In this document: positions 5,303-12,547 of the stretch, one piece after another | How positions within the stretch are numbered: position 1 is the stretch's first letter | How the letters are laid out: each line of letters opens with the position of its first letter | Source of the DNA: Acetomicrobium sp. S15 = DSM 107314 | Lineage (GTDB): Bacteria > Synergistota > Synergistia > Synergistales > Thermosynergistaceae | Length of the DNA stretch: 64,000 nt | Direction of reading: 5' to 3' | Assembly: GCF_016125955.1 (NCBI RefSeq) | Contig: NZ_JADEVE010000388.1 | Span: 1 to 64,000 of the forward strand | Notes under the pieces: model-generated | Told to the model about the DNA's origin: nothing | What the model saw: only the letters and a program-made list of their open reading frames with translations | Database searches by the model: none | Made by a program: the position numbers and the translations under genes

Positions 5303-6400
5303 ATGTCTCTCAAGGTAGCTGTTCTCGGGGCTGGCAACGGAGGATTAGCAATGGGAGCCCATTTGGCCCTAATGGGTTGTAATGTGAAGATTTATGACAA
5401 GTTTCCCGAGGCTGTTAAACCTTTACAGAAAGAAGGTGGAGTGCATCTTAAGAGTGCTTTTGTGAATGGTTTTGGGCCTTTAGAGAGTGCTACTTCTTCT
5501 ATAGAAGAGGCGATTGCTGGTTGTGATTTAATTATGGTAGTAACGCCAGCCTTTGCTCATAGGGAGATTGCCCAATCCTGCGTCCCTCTGTTAAGAGATG
5601 GACAAAAGATAATACTCCATCCTGGCAGAACTGGTGGAGCCATGGAGTTTTATCATATTCTATCAAAAAAAGCCCCTGGCCTCGATGTAATTGTAACTGA
5701 GACTCAAACGCTCGTATACGCTTGCAGACGCACTGGACCATCTGAGGTTACCATATATGGCGTAAAGGAACGAGTACCCTTAGCTGCTATTCCGGCTTTT
5801 AAGACGAAGGAAGTAATTGCTTTACTTAAAGATTTCTACCCTCAGTTTACTGAAGCTCAAAATGTTCTTGAAACTAGCTTACTCAACATGGGAGCGATTT
5901 TTCATCCGACCCCTACGATATTTAACCTTGGGCGCATAGAAGAAGGCCAAGAATTTGAATATTATCATCAAGGCATAACTCCTTTAGTGGGGCGTGTTTT
6001 GGACAAGATAGACCAAGAAAGGGTGGCAATTGCCGAAAGCTTGGGGTTGTCCAACTTAACCGCGCTGGAGTGGCTTCGAAGTGTCTATGGGATTGAGATA
6101 AACAAGGGAGACGATATTTGTAGCGCCATACACAAAACAAAAGTATACGCAGGCATTATGGCACCCAAGGATCCTTATACCCGCTATCTTACCGAGGATG
6201 TCCCTATGAGTCTGGTCCCGCTTTCTGAGTTAGCTAAAATTGCGAACATCAAAACGCCGATAGTTGATTTAATAATTGAAATCGCGTCCACCATACATGA
6301 AAAAGATTACAGAAGCTCGGGGCGGACATTGGGGCGAATGGGCGTACAAGGGCTTTCAAAATATGCTCTTTTAGAATATGTAAATTCTGGAATACGATAG
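5303..6400 (+). CDS. NAD/NADP octopine/nopaline (opine) dehydrogenase family protein
   Basis: A 365-residue dehydrogenase. The N-terminal Rossmann fold starts at once with VAVLGAGNGGLAMGAHLAL (residues 5-23). The C-terminal octopine-dehydrogenase-type domain spans about residues 180-335 and includes MGAIFHPTPTIFN, holding the family histidine-proline pair. Family members reductively join an amino acid to a 2-oxo acid or split such N-carboxyalkyl amino acids. A strong AAGGAGG precedes the ATG. The gene lies between a TAXI transporter and a cyclodeaminase-family gene, so a catabolic role on an imported opine or related compound is plausible but unproven. Some relatives act as ketopantoate-like reductases. 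Confidence 0.85.
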   Translation: MSLKVAVLGAGNGGLAMGAHLALMGCNVKIYDKFPEAVKPLQKEGGVHLKSAFVNGFGPLESATSSIEEAIAGCDLIMVVTPAFAHREIAQSCVPLLRDGQKIILHPGRTGGAMEFYHILSKKAPGLDVIVTETQTLVYACRRTGPSEVTIYGVKERVPLAAIPAFKTKEVIALLKDFYPQFTEAQNVLETSLLNMGAIFHPTPTIFNLGRIEEGQEFEYYHQGITPLVGRVLDKIDQERVAIAESLGLSNLTALEWLRSVYGIEINKGDDICSAIHKTKVYAGIMAPKDPYTRYLTEDVPMSLVPLSELAKIANIKTPIVDLIIEIASTIHEKDYRSSGRTLGRMGVQGLSKYALLEYVNSGIR

Positions 6401-6415
6401 AGAGGTGAGAAGTGT

Positions 6416-7450
6416 ATGAATAAAGTTGAGTTCTTATATCTAAGTCAAAAAGACGTTATTGAGTGTGGGGCTTTAGATATGGGAATGGTCATTAGCGAGT
6501 TGGAGGTAGTCTTTAAATTGCACTATCAAGGAAAGACCATCATGCCTGATAAAATGGTCCTTAGATGGGGAGATATGGACTCTGAAGCCATAAACGGACG
6601 AATCAATGCCATGGCTGGCTATATAAGTGACCCCATTAATGTTGCTGGTATTAAATGGATAGCAAGCAAGCCTCAAAATCCGATGAAATATGGGATGCCT
6701 AGAGCCTCTGCGCTCATCATTTTAAATGACCCAGAGAAAGGGTTTCCCATAGCTGTTATGGATGGCACTGTGATAAGTGCTATGAGGACGGGAGGTGTTA
6801 CTGGAGTAGCAGCTAAGCGGCTTGCCCGAAAAGATTCTCGCGTATTATGTCTTATTGGGGCTGGAACTCAGAACAGAACGCAGCTTATGGCCGTAAAAAC
6901 TGCTTTGCCTTCTATAGATACAGTAAAGGTTTATGATTTAAACTATGATCGCGCCAAGAGGTTTGCTCAAGAGGCATCAGAAAAATTCAATATCGACCTT
7001 TTTGCTGTAACCTCGCCCGAAGAGGCAGTGCGAGATTCGGATGTTATTGTAACCGCTACAACTGCTACATCACCCATTGTAAAACTTGCTTGGGTTAAAG
7101 AAGGGGCTTTCATATCCAACGTCGGTAACTACGAAGTTGAAAGTGAAGTTCTTAAGAAAGCCAGCAAGATAATAGTCGATGACTGGGAAAAGGTTAAACA
7201 TAGAGGCGTGCAGACAAGTGCTATTCTGTTCAAAGAAGGCAAATTGAGCGATGAAGATATATACGCCAATTTAGGGGCAATAGTGGCAGGAAGCGTGGCT
7301 GGGAGAGAAAACCAAGAAGAAATCATATTTTTTAATCCAGTTGGCATGGCCATCGAAGATCTGATAGTAGCCAATAAGATTTACAAGACTGCAAGGATCC
7401 GCAACCTAGGCGTTTCTTTGCTGCTTTGGGAGCAACCGTATTGGGTGTGA
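6416..7450 (+). CDS. Ornithine cyclodeaminase / mu-crystallin family protein
   Basis: A 344-residue protein with the family fold. The substrate-domain arginine-glycine segment MRTGGVTGVAAKRLAR is near residues 122-137. A Rossmann segment LCLIGAGTQNRTQLMA follows at about 143-158, and IIVDDWE near 250. Members use NAD(P) to deaminate, reduce or oxidise amino acids or imines (ornithine cyclodeaminase, alanine dehydrogenase, SbnB, ketimine reductase). The gene follows the opine dehydrogenase by 15 bases behind GAGAGGTGAGAAG, so the two are co-translated. SbnB-type enzymes also act on an N-carboxyalkyl amino acid, which fits the neighbouring opine enzyme. Exact substrate unknown. Confidence 0.85.
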   Translation: MNKVEFLYLSQKDVIECGALDMGMVISELEVVFKLHYQGKTIMPDKMVLRWGDMDSEAINGRINAMAGYISDPINVAGIKWIASKPQNPMKYGMPRASALIILNDPEKGFPIAVMDGTVISAMRTGGVTGVAAKRLARKDSRVLCLIGAGTQNRTQLMAVKTALPSIDTVKVYDLNYDRAKRFAQEASEKFNIDLFAVTSPEEAVRDSDVIVTATTATSPIVKLAWVKEGAFISNVGNYEVESEVLKKASKIIVDDWEKVKHRGVQTSAILFKEGKLSDEDIYANLGAIVAGSVAGRENQEEIIFFNPVGMAIEDLIVANKIYKTARIRNLGVSLLLWEQPYWV

Positions 7451-7591: not shown

Positions 7592-7637
7592 AGAAAAAGG
7601 TTCGTGTGCCAGGTGCAATATGCACGAACCTTTTTCT
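7592..7637 (+). terminator. Bidirectional rho-independent terminator
   Basis: Perfect 15-bp stem: arm 7592-7606 pairs with 7623-7637. The arms begin AGAAAAAGG and end CCTTTTTCT, so a T-tract is present on both strands. It ends the TAXI/opine operon and can also stop minus-strand transcripts coming from the chemoreceptor gene. Confidence 0.85.
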
Positions 7638-7733: not shown

Positions 7734-8570
7734 CTAAAGCTGCAGGTTGCCCAGGTTCTTTTGGGCTTTCACTATGGCCGATATGGTCTGTGCCATGGAG
7801 TCGAATTTTTTCACCGCATCCCTCATGATCTTCGTGGAATCGCCCATCTCTTCGGAAGCCACTGAAACCCCCTGACTTGCCGACTCCATGATGCCAGTCA
7901 GATTTTCTAAGAATCCTTTGTTCATGTCCAGAAAGCTGAGGAAGGAACCCATAGTGTTACGAAGCACATGAAACATCTCGCCTACGCTTTTTATATTATC
8001 CATGGTGTCCTCGACGGCTTTAGATATCTCTCCAACCCTTTGCGATATGCGCTCCGATGCATTTCGCGATTCCACGGCTAACTTCTGGACCTCCGACGCC
8101 ACTACGGCGAAACCCCTGCCATGTTCTCCGGCTCTTGCAGCTTCGATGGAGGCGTTCAAGGCAAGTAGGTTCGTCTGCTTGGCGATCTTTTGGATCTCCT
8201 TGGAGATTTTTTCTATCTCCAAAAATGAGTTGAGGGTAGAGTAAGTAGAGGCCACGGTGCGATCTACATCTGCGCTCATGTTCTCCAGGTTTGTGCCGGA
8301 GCTTTCGAGCTCTTTGGCAAGGTTCATGTTCAGTTCTTTGATCTGCCCTGCGTTTTTTTGGGCCTCTTGCCTACTTTGGTCAAAGTCTTTCACGATGCGC
8401 TCGAACTCTCCTTTTAGCTCAGCGAAGCGCTGTGATATCTCGGAGAGTTCGCTCTGGACCTCGAGAACACGATGGACGAGTACTTCATCTAACTGTTCCA
8501 TGAAAGAGGTCATGAGCGTGAAACCGAAGTGAGATCTGGAGAGCTTGTGAATAGCTTCTGGATGGCTCAT
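7734..8570 (-). CDS. Soluble methyl-accepting chemotaxis protein (no transmembrane segment)
   Basis: A 278-residue chemoreceptor signalling domain without any membrane segment or periplasmic sensor. It is mostly coiled coil. The hairpin tip contains the near-invariant CheA/CheW contact region [18 protein letters not shown] followed by [11 protein letters not shown] (around residues 145-175). The ATG at 8570 follows AAGGTGAAAG, which lies across the stop of the upstream diiron-protein gene; the frame could be read from 8615, but that part overlaps the neighbour's 3' end. The first about 45 residues have no recognised sensor domain, so it probably receives its signal from the partner protein encoded upstream. 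Confidence 0.9.
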
Positions 8571-8580
8571 CTCTTTCACC

Positions 8581-9378
8581 TTACTTTCTGACGGCCAGGG
8601 TAGCCTTTGTGCCATACCATTCCTCGATTAAGTCGACGCCGCTTTTAAGTTGGCTCAGCCATTGAAAGAACTTTCTCACGTTGTCTTTGCCTTTTATCAC
8701 AGCACCATGCTGCGGGGCGACGGCTTCGACATCCCTGCTCGAAACAATATTGGCCCAAAAGTTGGATGCCTCCTGCGAGGCCATGTAGCGGCGGTGGAAG
8801 CCCTCCATGTAGCGAACGTGTTCGTCGAAGCGCTCCACAACGGGATATCGCTTCCCCGGAGGAAAGATGGCGGCGCCGATGTCGCCGCTGAACAGTATCT
8901 TCGAGACGGGATCGTAAAGCGTGTGCTGACCCGTGGAGTGGAGGAAATGTGCGGGTATGATCTCAAGCCTTTGGCCGTTCTTTAAAGTTATGACACCTCC
9001 CCTGTCTGGGATGGGGGATATGCGGCTTTGATCGAAAATGCCGAAGTGCGGCAGAAAGCGCGTCCAAAGCCCTGATATATGTACAATCGCTCGCTCGGCC
9101 ATAGAAAGCCATAGCGTTATGCCGGAACTCACATCCGGATCCTGATGGGAATAGAAGATATGGGTGATACTGTCGATATTGACCATCTCGGTGACGTTAG
9201 CCAGCACGCGCGGAAACACGTGGGCCCCGCCTGGGTCGAGGAGTACGACCTCGTCGCCGCTTTGAATCAAATACTGGTTCGTTTGGACGACGCCATCTTC
9301 TTCCTGCTCCTCCCACCCTAACAGCATAAAGCGCCTGGATGCGTCCTCGTAAAGCGTCAAACTGCCCGTCTTTGCCAT
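8581..9378 (-). CDS. ODP-type diiron metallo-beta-lactamase-fold protein (oxygen/iron sensor-like)
   Basis: A 265-residue protein consisting only of the metallo-beta-lactamase domain found in flavodiiron proteins, without a flavodoxin domain. Metal-ligand candidates occur in order: SHQDPDV (H, D, D, about residues 80-86), the HFLHS segment (about 146-150), SGDIG (about 165-169) and PQHG (about 220-223). It lacks the hydrolase HxHxDH motif. Related stand-alone proteins (ODP) bind oxygen at a diiron centre, and in Treponema denticola one signals through a soluble chemoreceptor. The chemoreceptor gene starts 10 bases downstream here, which supports that role. A hydrolase or oxygen-reductase function is the alternative. 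Confidence 0.85.
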
Positions 9379-9384
9379 CGCAGA

Positions 9385-10365
9385 TTATCCCCCTTTTAGT
9401 TCCACTCTCTCCTCAAATACGAGCGGCATCTCCGCAAAGTATATTGCTGTCTCCCTGAGCCCTTCGGCGAGCGGTGTGACTTCGCCTAATCCCAACTCTG
9501 CTTTCATGTTTTTTACATCCGCCGCGCTGTATCTGATGTCGCCAGGGCGCGGAGGCTCAAAGACCGGAGTCTGAGTTACGCCTATTATCGAAGAGATGAG
9601 CGCATATAACTCGTTGATGGATACAGCTACGCCAGATGCGACGTTAAAAACCCTTCCTCCGAGCTTGTGCGATCTTTCGGCTGCGGCTATGAAGGCTCGG
9701 GCTACATCCCTCACGAATATGAAGTCGCGCATCTGGCGGCCGTCGCCGTAGATCTTGACTTCCTTGCCCGTAGTTAAGGCCTCAATGAAGCGCGGAATGA
9801 CAGCTGCATATTCTCCATTCGGATTTTGCCTCGGGCCGTAGACGTTAAAGAGCCTCAAGCCTACCGCGCGCACCTTCCAGGCGCGGTGCGCCATGGATGC
9901 GTATATCTCGTCTATGAGTTTCGTTGCCCCATAAGGAGATTGCGGGGCAGGCGGATCGTCTTCTTTAAGGGGCTTTGTGCCACCCTCGCCATAGACGGCA
10001 GACGAGCTGGCATATACTATAGGAAAACCTTTTCTTCTAGCGATGTCGAGGAGCCGAAGCAACGGGGTGACGTTTTGTTCGTGGCACGATAGAGGGTGCT
10101 CCATCGACATGGGGACAGACACCATGGCGGCCAGATGAAAGAGCGCGTCTATGCCCTCTGTTAGCTCTTCGAGGATAGCGCTATCCGTCACGTCTCCCTC
10201 TACGAACGAGAAGCGCCTTCCCTTGAGGTGCGAAACATTATCGCGACACCCCGTAGAGAGATTGTCGAAGCAAGTGACACGCCAACCTCTTTCGACGAGA
10301 GCCTCGCACAAGTGCGACCCTATAAACCCAGCTCCGCCAGTGACCAGAGCGTGAGGCATCGTCAC
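9385..10365 (-). CDS. NAD-dependent sugar-nucleotide epimerase (UDP-glucose 4-epimerase-like)
   Basis: A 326-residue extended short-chain dehydrogenase. It has the NAD motif GGAGFIGSHL at residues 10-19, the serine of SSSAVYG near 122, the catalytic YGATK near 147-151 and the RLFNVYGPRQ segment near 175. This matches UDP-hexose 4-epimerases or related epimerase/dehydratases of surface-polysaccharide synthesis; the exact sugar cannot be told. The GTG at 10365 is preceded by GGAGG at ten bases; an ATG two codons in is possible. It is the first gene of a minus-strand trio with the diiron protein (6-base gap) and chemoreceptor, and is divergent from homoserine dehydrogenase. Confidence 0.85.
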   Translation of the reverse strand: MTMPHALVTGGAGFIGSHLCEALVERGWRVTCFDNLSTGCRDNVSHLKGRRFSFVEGDVTDSAILEELTEGIDALFHLAAMVSVPMSMEHPLSCHEQNVTPLLRLLDIARRKGFPIVYASSSAVYGEGGTKPLKEDDPPAPQSPYGATKLIDEIYASMAHRAWKVRAVGLRLFNVYGPRQNPNGEYAAVIPRFIEALTTGKEVKIYGDGRQMRDFIFVRDVARAFIAAAERSHKLGGRVFNVASGVAVSINELYALISSIIGVTQTPVFEPPRPGDIRYSAADVKNMKAELGLGEVTPLAEGLRETAIYFAEMPLVFEERVELKGG

Positions 10366-10461
10366 AAATCACCCGCCTCCGTGGTATTATACAAAAATAT
10401 AGCGAATAATTGCGCTAAAATTATAACCCACGCAGATGTGCAGTGGCAAGGGGGAGGGGCT

Positions 10462-11502
10462 TTGAGGGTTTTGCTTTTGGGTTTTGGCAATGTTGGCCGA
10501 CAGTTCTGCGAAATGTTATCTGTCAAAGCCAACTTCCTAAAGGCGAATTATGGTTTGGAAGTGTGTGTCGTAGGCGTGGCTACGCGCCACAGGGGCAGCG
10601 TTTGTGCCGCAAACGGCCTTCCCGTCGAGGGACTTTTGAAAACGGAAGAAGAGACAGGGCGCGTGGACGTCTGGGAACAACCGTATAGCGTAGGGCAGAG
10701 CGTGGACGAGCTTTTGGAAAGCTGTGACTACGACGTTTTAGTGGAGTGTACCTCACCGAACATAGAGACCGGCGAACCAGCGGCGGATTATATCCGCAAA
10801 GCCCTAAGGGGTAAACATCACGTAGCAACATCGAACAAAGGCCCCTTGCTCTTTCATTTTCATGAATTGACGGAGATCGCCGCCGTGAATGGCGTGTATT
10901 TCCTTTACGAGGGCACCGTTATGGCCGGCACGCCCCTCTTTTCCTTGGCGAGATGTGGCCTTGCCGGTAGCAGGATACGCCGTTTTGAGGGGATTATAAA
11001 CAGCACGACCAATTACATGCTCACCCTCATCGCCGCCGGATCTTCGTTCGACGAGGCCGTGCGCGATGCCCAAAGGCGTGGCTATGCTGAGGTTGATCCG
11101 ACGCTGGATGTAGATGGATGGGATGCGGCAGCCAAGGTTATCATTGTGGCTCAGGCGATTTTAGGGATGCCAGTTGTCGGTTTTCGCTCCGTCGCAGTAG
11201 AGGGGATACGCGGTATAACGCCGTATATGATGGATGATGCCCGCCGCAGAGGTGTGTGCATAAAGCTCGTCGCGAGGGCTTCGCTCGACGAGGAACCGTC
11301 CATTTCTGTCAAGCCCGAGGCTGTACCCTTTTCTCACCCGCTCGCGAGCGTCGAAGGAATAAACAACGGGGCTCTGCTGCTCTCTGATACAATTGGAGAA
11401 ATTAGCATAATCGGTCCAGGCGCCGGAGCCAGGGAGACGGCGAGCGCCCTCTTGAGGGATTTAATAGCCATAGAGATGGGGGGGAAAGTGCTTGAAAGGT
11501 AG
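10462..11502 (+). CDS. hom: Homoserine dehydrogenase (short form, no ACT domain)
   Basis: A 346-residue NAD(P)-dependent enzyme that reduces aspartate semialdehyde to homoserine, the branch point to methionine and threonine. The N-terminal Rossmann motif is LLGFGNVGRQ at residues 5-14. The TSNKGP segment and DPTLDVDGWDAAAKV (substrate aspartates and catalytic lysine) are in their family positions. There is no C-terminal ACT regulatory domain, so the classic threonine feedback site is missing. The TTG at 10462 follows GGGGAGGGG; the open frame extends upstream into the divergent epimerase gene, which is not credible. It overlaps the next gene by 11 bases. Confidence 0.9.
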   Translation: MRVLLLGFGNVGRQFCEMLSVKANFLKANYGLEVCVVGVATRHRGSVCAANGLPVEGLLKTEEETGRVDVWEQPYSVGQSVDELLESCDYDVLVECTSPNIETGEPAADYIRKALRGKHHVATSNKGPLLFHFHELTEIAAVNGVYFLYEGTVMAGTPLFSLARCGLAGSRIRRFEGIINSTTNYMLTLIAAGSSFDEAVRDAQRRGYAEVDPTLDVDGWDAAAKVIIVAQAILGMPVVGFRSVAVEGIRGITPYMMDDARRRGVCIKLVARASLDEEPSISVKPEAVPFSHPLASVEGINNGALLLSDTIGEISIIGPGAGARETASALLRDLIAIEMGGKVLER

Positions 11503-12043
11503 AGTGGCGATCATTGCCGATACCCATGGTAGCATCACGGCTTGGGAAGGGGCCTGCGCTGTCTGGGGAGCTGTTGATGCTATATTCCATGTGGGGGATG
11601 TGCTCTATCATGGCCCGAGGAATCCCATGCCCGATGGGTACGATCCGAAGGTGTTGGCGGAGGAAATCAATGCTTCCACCACCCCCGTATTCTTGGTTAG
11701 GGGCAATTGTGATGCCCCAATTGACGAAGTGCTGCTAAAATGGCCGGTGAGTGCCCCTCTGCTCGTTTCCTGGTGGAACGGGAGACTTCTGCTCTTCTCT
11801 CACGGCGAGGATCCGGAGGCGTTCAGGGAGAAGGCTATCCTCTGCGGTGCCACAGTGGCCGTATCGGGACACACGCATTTGGCCTCTATTAAGAGAGAGA
11901 GGAACGTCATATTCTTAAACCCGGGTTCTGCGAGCCTTCCCAAAGGAGAGCTTCCTCCGTCGGTGGCTCTCCTGGACGATGAAGGCATAGCTATATTCTC
12001 TCTCAGTGATGGAAGTAGACTATTATATGAGCCTTGGAGGTGA
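11492..12043 (+). CDS. YfcE-type metallophosphoesterase
   Basis: A 183-residue calcineurin-like phosphodiesterase of the YfcE/MJ0936 class. Metal-binding motifs occur in order: DTH (residues 10-12), GDV near 34, GNCD near 72, the histidine of FSHGE near 103 and SGHTH near 127-131. Family members hydrolyse phosphodiesters in vitro; the cellular substrate is usually unknown. The TTG start overlaps the hom stop and is preceded by a G-rich ribosome site. It belongs to the long plus-strand operon. Confidence 0.88.
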   Translation: MKGRVAIIADTHGSITAWEGACAVWGAVDAIFHVGDVLYHGPRNPMPDGYDPKVLAEEINASTTPVFLVRGNCDAPIDEVLLKWPVSAPLLVSWWNGRLLLFSHGEDPEAFREKAILCGATVAVSGHTHLASIKRERNVIFLNPGSASLPKGELPPSVALLDDEGIAIFSLSDGSRLLYEPWR

Positions 12044-12049
12044 AAATCC

Positions 12050-12547
12050 TTGCCAAAGGACGACGAATACGGTCAAGAAATCGTTATATTGGTTTTCGAT
12101 CTGCTCGGCGAACAATACGCGCTGGAAGTCGAAGATGTGCGCGAGATTGTGCGGATTTCCGAGCGGATAACGAGGGTCCCCAATGCGCCTCCTTATGTGC
12201 GAGGCGTGATCAACCTGCGCGGCACCGTGATACCCATCATGGATGTCTCTCTGAAGCTGGGGGGGGAGGCTTTGGAGTTGGGGACGAGGTCGCGGATCGT
12301 CGTGGTTGAGCACAGAGACGTTGCCTTCGGTGTCATCGTAGATGGAGTAAGAGAGGTGAGGGTGATAGAAAAAGGACAAGTAGAGCCGGCCGATTCGGTA
12401 GATTCGAGCATATCAAGGGAATACTTGAAGGGCGTGGCCAAGATCGACGACGGACGGCTGATAGTCCTTTTAGACATCGCCGGCCTCTTCGAAATCGAGT
12501 CCTTCTTGGGAGAGCAGGAGGTAGCGGAAGGGGGGGCATCGCGCTGA
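12050..12547 (+). CDS. cheW: CheW chemotaxis coupling protein
   Basis: A 165-residue CheW-like protein. The beta-barrel starts with VILVFDLLGEQYALEVEDVREIV (about residues 11-33). The conserved APPYVRGVINLRGTVIPIMD follows at about 45-65, the core that binds CheA and receptor tips. It starts with TTG behind GGAGGTG. No CheA or receptor methylation genes are in this operon, but a soluble chemoreceptor is encoded 3.5 kb away on the other strand, and the two could work in one array. Confidence 0.92.
   Translation: MPKDDEYGQEIVILVFDLLGEQYALEVEDVREIVRISERITRVPNAPPYVRGVINLRGTVIPIMDVSLKLGGEALELGTRSRIVVVEHRDVAFGVIVDGVREVRVIEKGQVEPADSVDSSISREYLKGVAKIDDGRLIVLLDIAGLFEIESFLGEQEVAEGGASR

Follow-up and report, generated by a model that had tools for sequence, protein, structure and literature searches.

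Two neighbouring minus-strand genes in the window (the whole stretch of 64,000 nucleotides that was analysed) raise the question of how a chemoreceptor with neither a membrane segment nor a sensor domain could receive a signal, and whether the metallo-beta-lactamase (MBL)-fold protein encoded beside it is its sensor. We read the two genes as a split cytoplasmic chemoreceptor, in which the first protein, an oxygen-binding diiron protein (ODP), would sense and the soluble receptor would signal to CheA; we give this reading a probability of about 0.86. The features on which the analysis draws are the following:

7594..7634, no strand assigned: palindromic hairpin AAAAAGGTTCGTG...CACGAACCTTTTT with a T-run, between the receptor gene and the convergent gene (read from the sequence)
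7734..8570, minus strand: soluble chemoreceptor, 278 aa (293 aa from the ATG at 8615; MCPsignal, TM14 3g67, AlphaFold)
8079..8186, minus strand: kinase-control tip of the receptor hairpin, residues 129-164 (most conserved block, canonical MCP tip sequence)
8436..8570, minus strand: N-terminal distal element of the receptor, residues 1-45, proposed ODP docking site (conservation, profile search)
8581..9378, minus strand: ODP, stand-alone oxygen-binding diiron protein, 265 aa (Pfam PF19583, PDB matches, ligand columns)
9385..10365, minus strand: NAD-dependent epimerase gene, 6 nt upstream of the ODP gene (Pfam Epimerase, 4e-66)
10420..10449, minus strand: promoter-like site TTGCCA-18-TATAAT upstream of the epimerase-ODP-receptor run (11/12 consensus, consensus match only)
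12050..12547, plus strand: CheW coupling protein, the only stand-alone CheW gene of the genome (Pfam CheW, 1e-37)

The diiron protein and its soluble receptor

By its sequence the product of the first gene is a member of the ODP family. Characteristic of the family are two irons and the binding of O2 as a stable peroxo adduct, properties that are predicted for the window protein too. The protein matches the Pfam family PF19583 over the entire profile (1-194 of 194) with 255 bits (E = 6e-76) against a cut-off of 27.2; it should be noted that this cut-off is also passed weakly by flavodiiron-like proteins (64-68 bits), so that the level of the score matters. Lactamase_B, with 64 bits, was the only other domain found, and the Pfam search of the 265 aa detected no flavodoxin domain, which bears out the first-pass annotation in its description of an MBL fold standing alone. 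The top PDB matches were 6qrq (E = 4e-103, 61% identity, Thermotoga lineage) and 6qnm (E = 1e-78, 51% identity, Treponema lineage); among the ODPs gathered, those nearest to these two structures came from Pseudothermotoga (73%) and Treponema putidum (96%), respectively.

The ligand residues H78, D80, D82, H147, D166, Q223 and H224, with the motifs HQDPDV and PQHG, form the ODP ligand set HxDxDV...H...D...QH. In the deduplicated alignment H78, D80, V83, H147, D166, Q223 and H224 were present in 93/93 ODPs and D82 in 92/93, and the same Gln replacement has been described as a ligand in the T. maritima ODP (PMC7785958). All nine other MBL-fold proteins of the window's genome have HxHxDH, and its two flavodiiron-like proteins both have HxExDH. 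In the tree the ODPs formed one clade (support 98/98) apart from the hydrolases of the genome and from the two flavodiiron-like proteins; the long hydrolase branches are unreliably placed, and the identity of the protein is argued from the ODP clade and the ligand columns. The phylogeny, proposed earlier as a check on a hydrolase affiliation, separated the ODPs from the hydrolases; on this and on the ligand set, in which HxHxDH is not present, a hydrolase identity was rejected. Flavodiiron proteins (A-type NO/O2 reductases) share the MBL fold and acidic diiron-type ligands with the window ODP, which differs from them in its lack of a flavodoxin domain and in having HxDxDV plus Gln where they have HxExDH; on these differences and the tree position a flavodiiron identity was rejected. 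The ligands had been called flavodiiron-like, and of this claim the acidic, diiron-type character stands while a strictly flavodiiron set does not, the ligands being of the ODP type.

The longest open reading frame of the receptor gene (8615-7734, 293 aa) would overlap the ODP gene by 35 nt. The start is most likely the ATG at 8570 (278 aa, leaving a gap of 10 nt), because an AAGGTGA Shine-Dalgarno-like sequence overlaps the ODP stop and the starts of relatives, with a median gap of 14 nt, agree. Both genes are real, their family matches lying well beyond chance, and with this start the spacing of 10 bases reported at first pass holds. The receptor matches MCPsignal (E = 2e-31), and its best PDB match is 3g67, the T. 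maritima soluble receptor TM14. The AlphaFold model (pLDDT 86) consists of two long helices, residues 4-146 and 148-275, which are joined by a turn at the canonical tip. Segment prediction, the Pfam search and the predicted structure all agree with the earlier picture of a hairpin, none of them revealing a transmembrane segment or a sensor domain. The tip residues are intact and have the highest conservation of the receptor (3.8-4.1 bits), and the tip is expected to make the contact with CheA and CheW. Identity was 30-49% between the window receptor and ODP-adjacent Thermotogota receptors, and 34-38% between TM14 itself and receptors of the Synergistota/Thermotogota group.

Judged from these similarities, the pair is of the ODP-receptor type already characterised in Treponema and Thermotoga, and is closest to the Thermotoga version. 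The first description of such a couple is reportedly that of Muok et al. in 2019, whose title presents ODP as an Fe[II] and oxygen sensor; such pairs reportedly occur in eight phyla. In T. denticola the receptor TDE2496, which modulates CheA and has neither transmembrane nor sensing modules, is genetically coupled to the ODP TDE2498, and CheA ordering is altered when the ODP is lost (PMC7666581); this is the similar ODP/MCP pair to which the first-pass annotation had rightly pointed. ODPs have been recruited to bacterial and archaeal signalling and share operons with receptor genes, for which two orders of the genes are described (PMC7319448), and ODP contacts its receptors directly (PMC6978683). 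The T. maritima ODP (PDB 6qrq/6qwo) has the same ligands as the window ODP at the 61% identity given above, TM14 (PDB 3g67/3g6b) is the best structural match of the receptor, and the order of the two genes in Thermotogota loci is that of the window; the window differs in belonging to another phylum and in the epimerase gene that precedes the pair, and the crystallised stretch of TM14 does not include the conserved N-terminal element. The T. denticola ODP (PDB 6qnm/6r9n), 51% identical, also has the same ligands, and in the examined loci of Treponema the ODP gene is immediately followed by one for a receptor that matches the window receptor in length and build. However, the partner receptors of the Treponema type share no more than 17-20% identity with the window receptor, and their N-terminal element differs in type (GYNK...), matching the profile only weakly. 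At this level of receptor identity the transfer of mechanism from Treponema is therefore loose, and that from Thermotoga is closer.

Co-inheritance and genomic setting of the pair

An ODP was found in 40 of 188 Synergistota genomes and the receptor in the same 40 (E < 1e-45). By their coordinates the two genes are adjacent and on the same strand in 39 of these; in the fortieth (G038) the two matches lie on different contigs of a fragmented assembly and the ODP is only partly recovered. A scan with one genome per species returned 80 loci, which by title came from Synergistota, Thermotogota, Aquificota, Nitrospirota, Thermodesulfobacterium, Spirochaetota and Calescibacterium, and a short receptor directly follows the ODP in 78 of them. 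The adjacency is kept in at least five phyla, and the conservation in related genomes that had been suggested as a check is thus present at both scales. Because co-inheritance is one-to-one across the phylum, a functional pairing of ODP and receptor appears close to certain. Across phyla the ODP changes slowly (about 50-60% identity) and the receptor fast (about 17-40%).

Some loci of the scan warrant separate mention. L103 stops at a contig edge. A clear exception to the pairing is a Nitrospirae ODP (L072:3902-5632) with a CheR-like gene downstream, two large receptor genes upstream and no short receptor downstream. An Aquificaceae MAG (L077, genome G200) has three ODP genes against one in nearly all others, possibly through diversification of the sensor or a mixed bin.

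CheA was detected in 38/40 ODP-bearing and 92/148 ODP-free Synergistota genomes (Fisher p ~3e-5) and FliG in 38/40 and 91/148, respectively (p ~1e-5), both tests ignoring phylogeny. Given this enrichment, the pair would be an accessory of chemotactic cells and not a general part. Neither CheA nor FliG was found in the ODP-bearing genomes G013 and G039, both of which are less than 90% complete. The latter, a Fretibacterium fastidiosum-like single contig (L055, 89% complete), carries ODP and receptor; it may either be missing sequence, or its pair may be orphaned and serve a different output. Motile Synergistota have the pair only patchily; the genus g17 (about 40 Synergistota genomes) has CheA and FliG with no ODP or ODP-type receptor listed.

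The window's genome is 99.9% complete and encodes five receptors over the Pfam cut-off, of which the other four are predicted membrane receptors, with two or more candidate hydrophobic segments each. CheW domains occur genome-wide in one CheA-sized protein, one CheV-sized protein and one stand-alone CheW; there is one CheA dimerisation domain, and FliG is present. Since there is a single CheA in the genome, the signal of the pair most likely goes to the ordinary flagellar array.

Within the locus the epimerase, ODP and receptor genes probably form one transcript, since the run is flanked by the promoter-like site (10449-10420) and by the palindrome with its T-run. The palindrome, which overlaps a terminator-like site listed at 7613-7625, is a probable bidirectional terminator. 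The pair had been described as linked to an epimerase gene: the adjacency is correct, yet the epimerase adjoins the ODP only in the window's genus (L016, L045), and in Acetomicrobium a homoserine dehydrogenase gene lies directly beside the ODP. A functional link to the epimerase was therefore rejected as a matter of genus-level neighbourhood. Divergent upstream of the ODP operon (10228-12547) are genes for a homoserine dehydrogenase, a metallophosphoesterase and the only stand-alone CheW; the homoserine dehydrogenase and CheW genes have the same linkage to the ODP locus in Acetomicrobium (L046, L047). Elsewhere in the window (5303-7450) a gene of the octopine dehydrogenase family is directly followed by one of the ornithine cyclodeaminase/mu-crystallin family, which may indicate opine-type metabolism.

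A candidate docking element at the distal end of the receptor

Synergistota/Thermotogota receptors show two conservation peaks, one at the tip and the other at the opposite end. In this group the mean conservation is 2.20 bits in the mid-arm, compared with 3.19 bits over residues 11-36 (p = 2.5e-6) and 2.80 bits over the last 22 residues at the C-terminus (p = 0.001). The core of the N-terminal element (residues 15-35) reads FxxxLMxSFMxQLDEVLVxRV, with S22, F23, D28, R34 and V35 invariant in 37/37 receptor sequences. A profile of the 45 residues gave strong matches (E < 1e-16) in exactly the 40 ODP-bearing of the 188 Synergistota genomes, with one copy per genome; outside these 40 it gave two marginal matches, one in an open frame of 39 codons (E = 0.007) and one in a frame of 28 codons (E = 0.008). 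Each of the nine Thermotogota genomes that were reached through the loci had one match below 1e-3, in the ODP-adjoining receptor gene, two of these matches being weak. The profile was built from ODP-partner receptors, whose recovery is partly by construction; it is informative because no other receptor in the searched genomes carries the element. The solved stretch of TM14 aligns to receptor residues 42-251 (57-266 from the upstream ATG), and the crystallised construct therefore covers neither end of the receptor. We found no earlier description of the 45-residue element.

Since the element occupies the place of the sensor in an ordinary receptor, we predict that the ODP docks there. A wider proposal, which we hold only tentatively and at somewhat less than even odds, is that the partner receptors of Synergistota and Thermotogota carry an ODP-docking module. 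This module would consist of the N-terminal 45 residues together with the conserved C-terminus and lie where the four-helix bundle is farthest from CheA, and the ODP bound to it would stand in for a sensor domain attached covalently; for the slowly changing ODP, different versions of the module would be used in other phyla (GYNK... in Spirochaetota, another in Aquificota). Conservation at the distal end was not significant in Spirochaetota receptors by the same test (p = 0.3). In T. denticola cryo-electron tomography there was no obvious ODP position in the array (PMC7666581), and stable docking may therefore not occur. Two further lines were discarded. An N-terminal motif common to the Synergistota/Thermotogota and Spirochaetota receptors had a probability of 83% in profile comparison with the bridging loci L057 and L058 and of 35% when these were removed, and other coiled-coil segments scored as high. 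The correlation between ODP and receptor distances (r = 0.84) was dropped as evidence of contact, as shared ancestry alone predicts a correlation.

Proposed sensing mechanism and alternative readings

For iron and O2 binding, for contact between ODP and receptor and for control of CheA we extrapolate from characterised relatives. The diiron site of the ODP would bind O2 in a manner dependent on Fe, and the ODP would signal by binding its partner receptor, which has no sensor of its own. The hairpin tip of the receptor would contact the only CheA of the cell and its CheW; the receptor probably shares an array with the four membrane receptors, in which it would change CheA activity and through it flagellar behaviour. 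Movement away from oxygen, as first suggested, is plausible for an anaerobe; the direction of taxis is not readable from sequence.

Which cue matters most is the point at which another reading has some weight. A pair that chiefly senses iron, or the Fe state of the cell, and takes oxygen as a secondary cue is unlikely but deserves attention, as the title of the founding paper names both Fe[II] and oxygen and the sequence does not separate the two. Follow-up work, however, names ODP the oxygen sensor (PMC7666581). The same work, in which related ODPs are described as oxygen sensors, speaks against an O2- or NO-scavenging flavodiiron-like enzyme whose turnover, rather than ligand binding, is reported by the receptor; a remote likeness to the flavodiiron MBL domain (PDB 6h0d, 4dik) and a host that is an anaerobe by lineage would fit such an enzyme, but there is no FMN (flavodoxin) domain to supply electrons and the genome has two separate HxExDH flavodiiron-like proteins, and we consider it improbable.

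A shade less probable again is that in the window's organism the pair is a remnant or serves an output other than motility, as the two ODP-bearing genomes in which CheA and FliG were not found (G013, G039) might suggest; the window's genome has CheA, CheW and FliG, and the ligands and the receptor tip are intact. The Lactamase_B score of 64 bits is what would favour an ordinary zinc hydrolase (e.g., glyoxalase II-like or an RNase relative) that neighbours the receptor gene by chance. This we regard as very improbable: Asp stands in place of the second His of HxHxDH and Val in place of the last, Gln is among the ligands, the score is four times higher for the ODP profile than for Lactamase_B, the ODPs form a clade of their own, and the adjacency to the receptor is kept across phyla.

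The split cytoplasmic chemoreceptor proposed here adds a well-supported Synergistota case to the ODP-receptor oxygen/iron sensors. For the open question of where a diffusible sensor makes contact with a chemoreceptor, it also narrows the search to an element of 45 residues outside the solved structure. Motile relatives, such as Acetomicrobium hydrogeniformans, which is motile and has polar flagella (PMC6025917), would be the place to test this candidate docking element.
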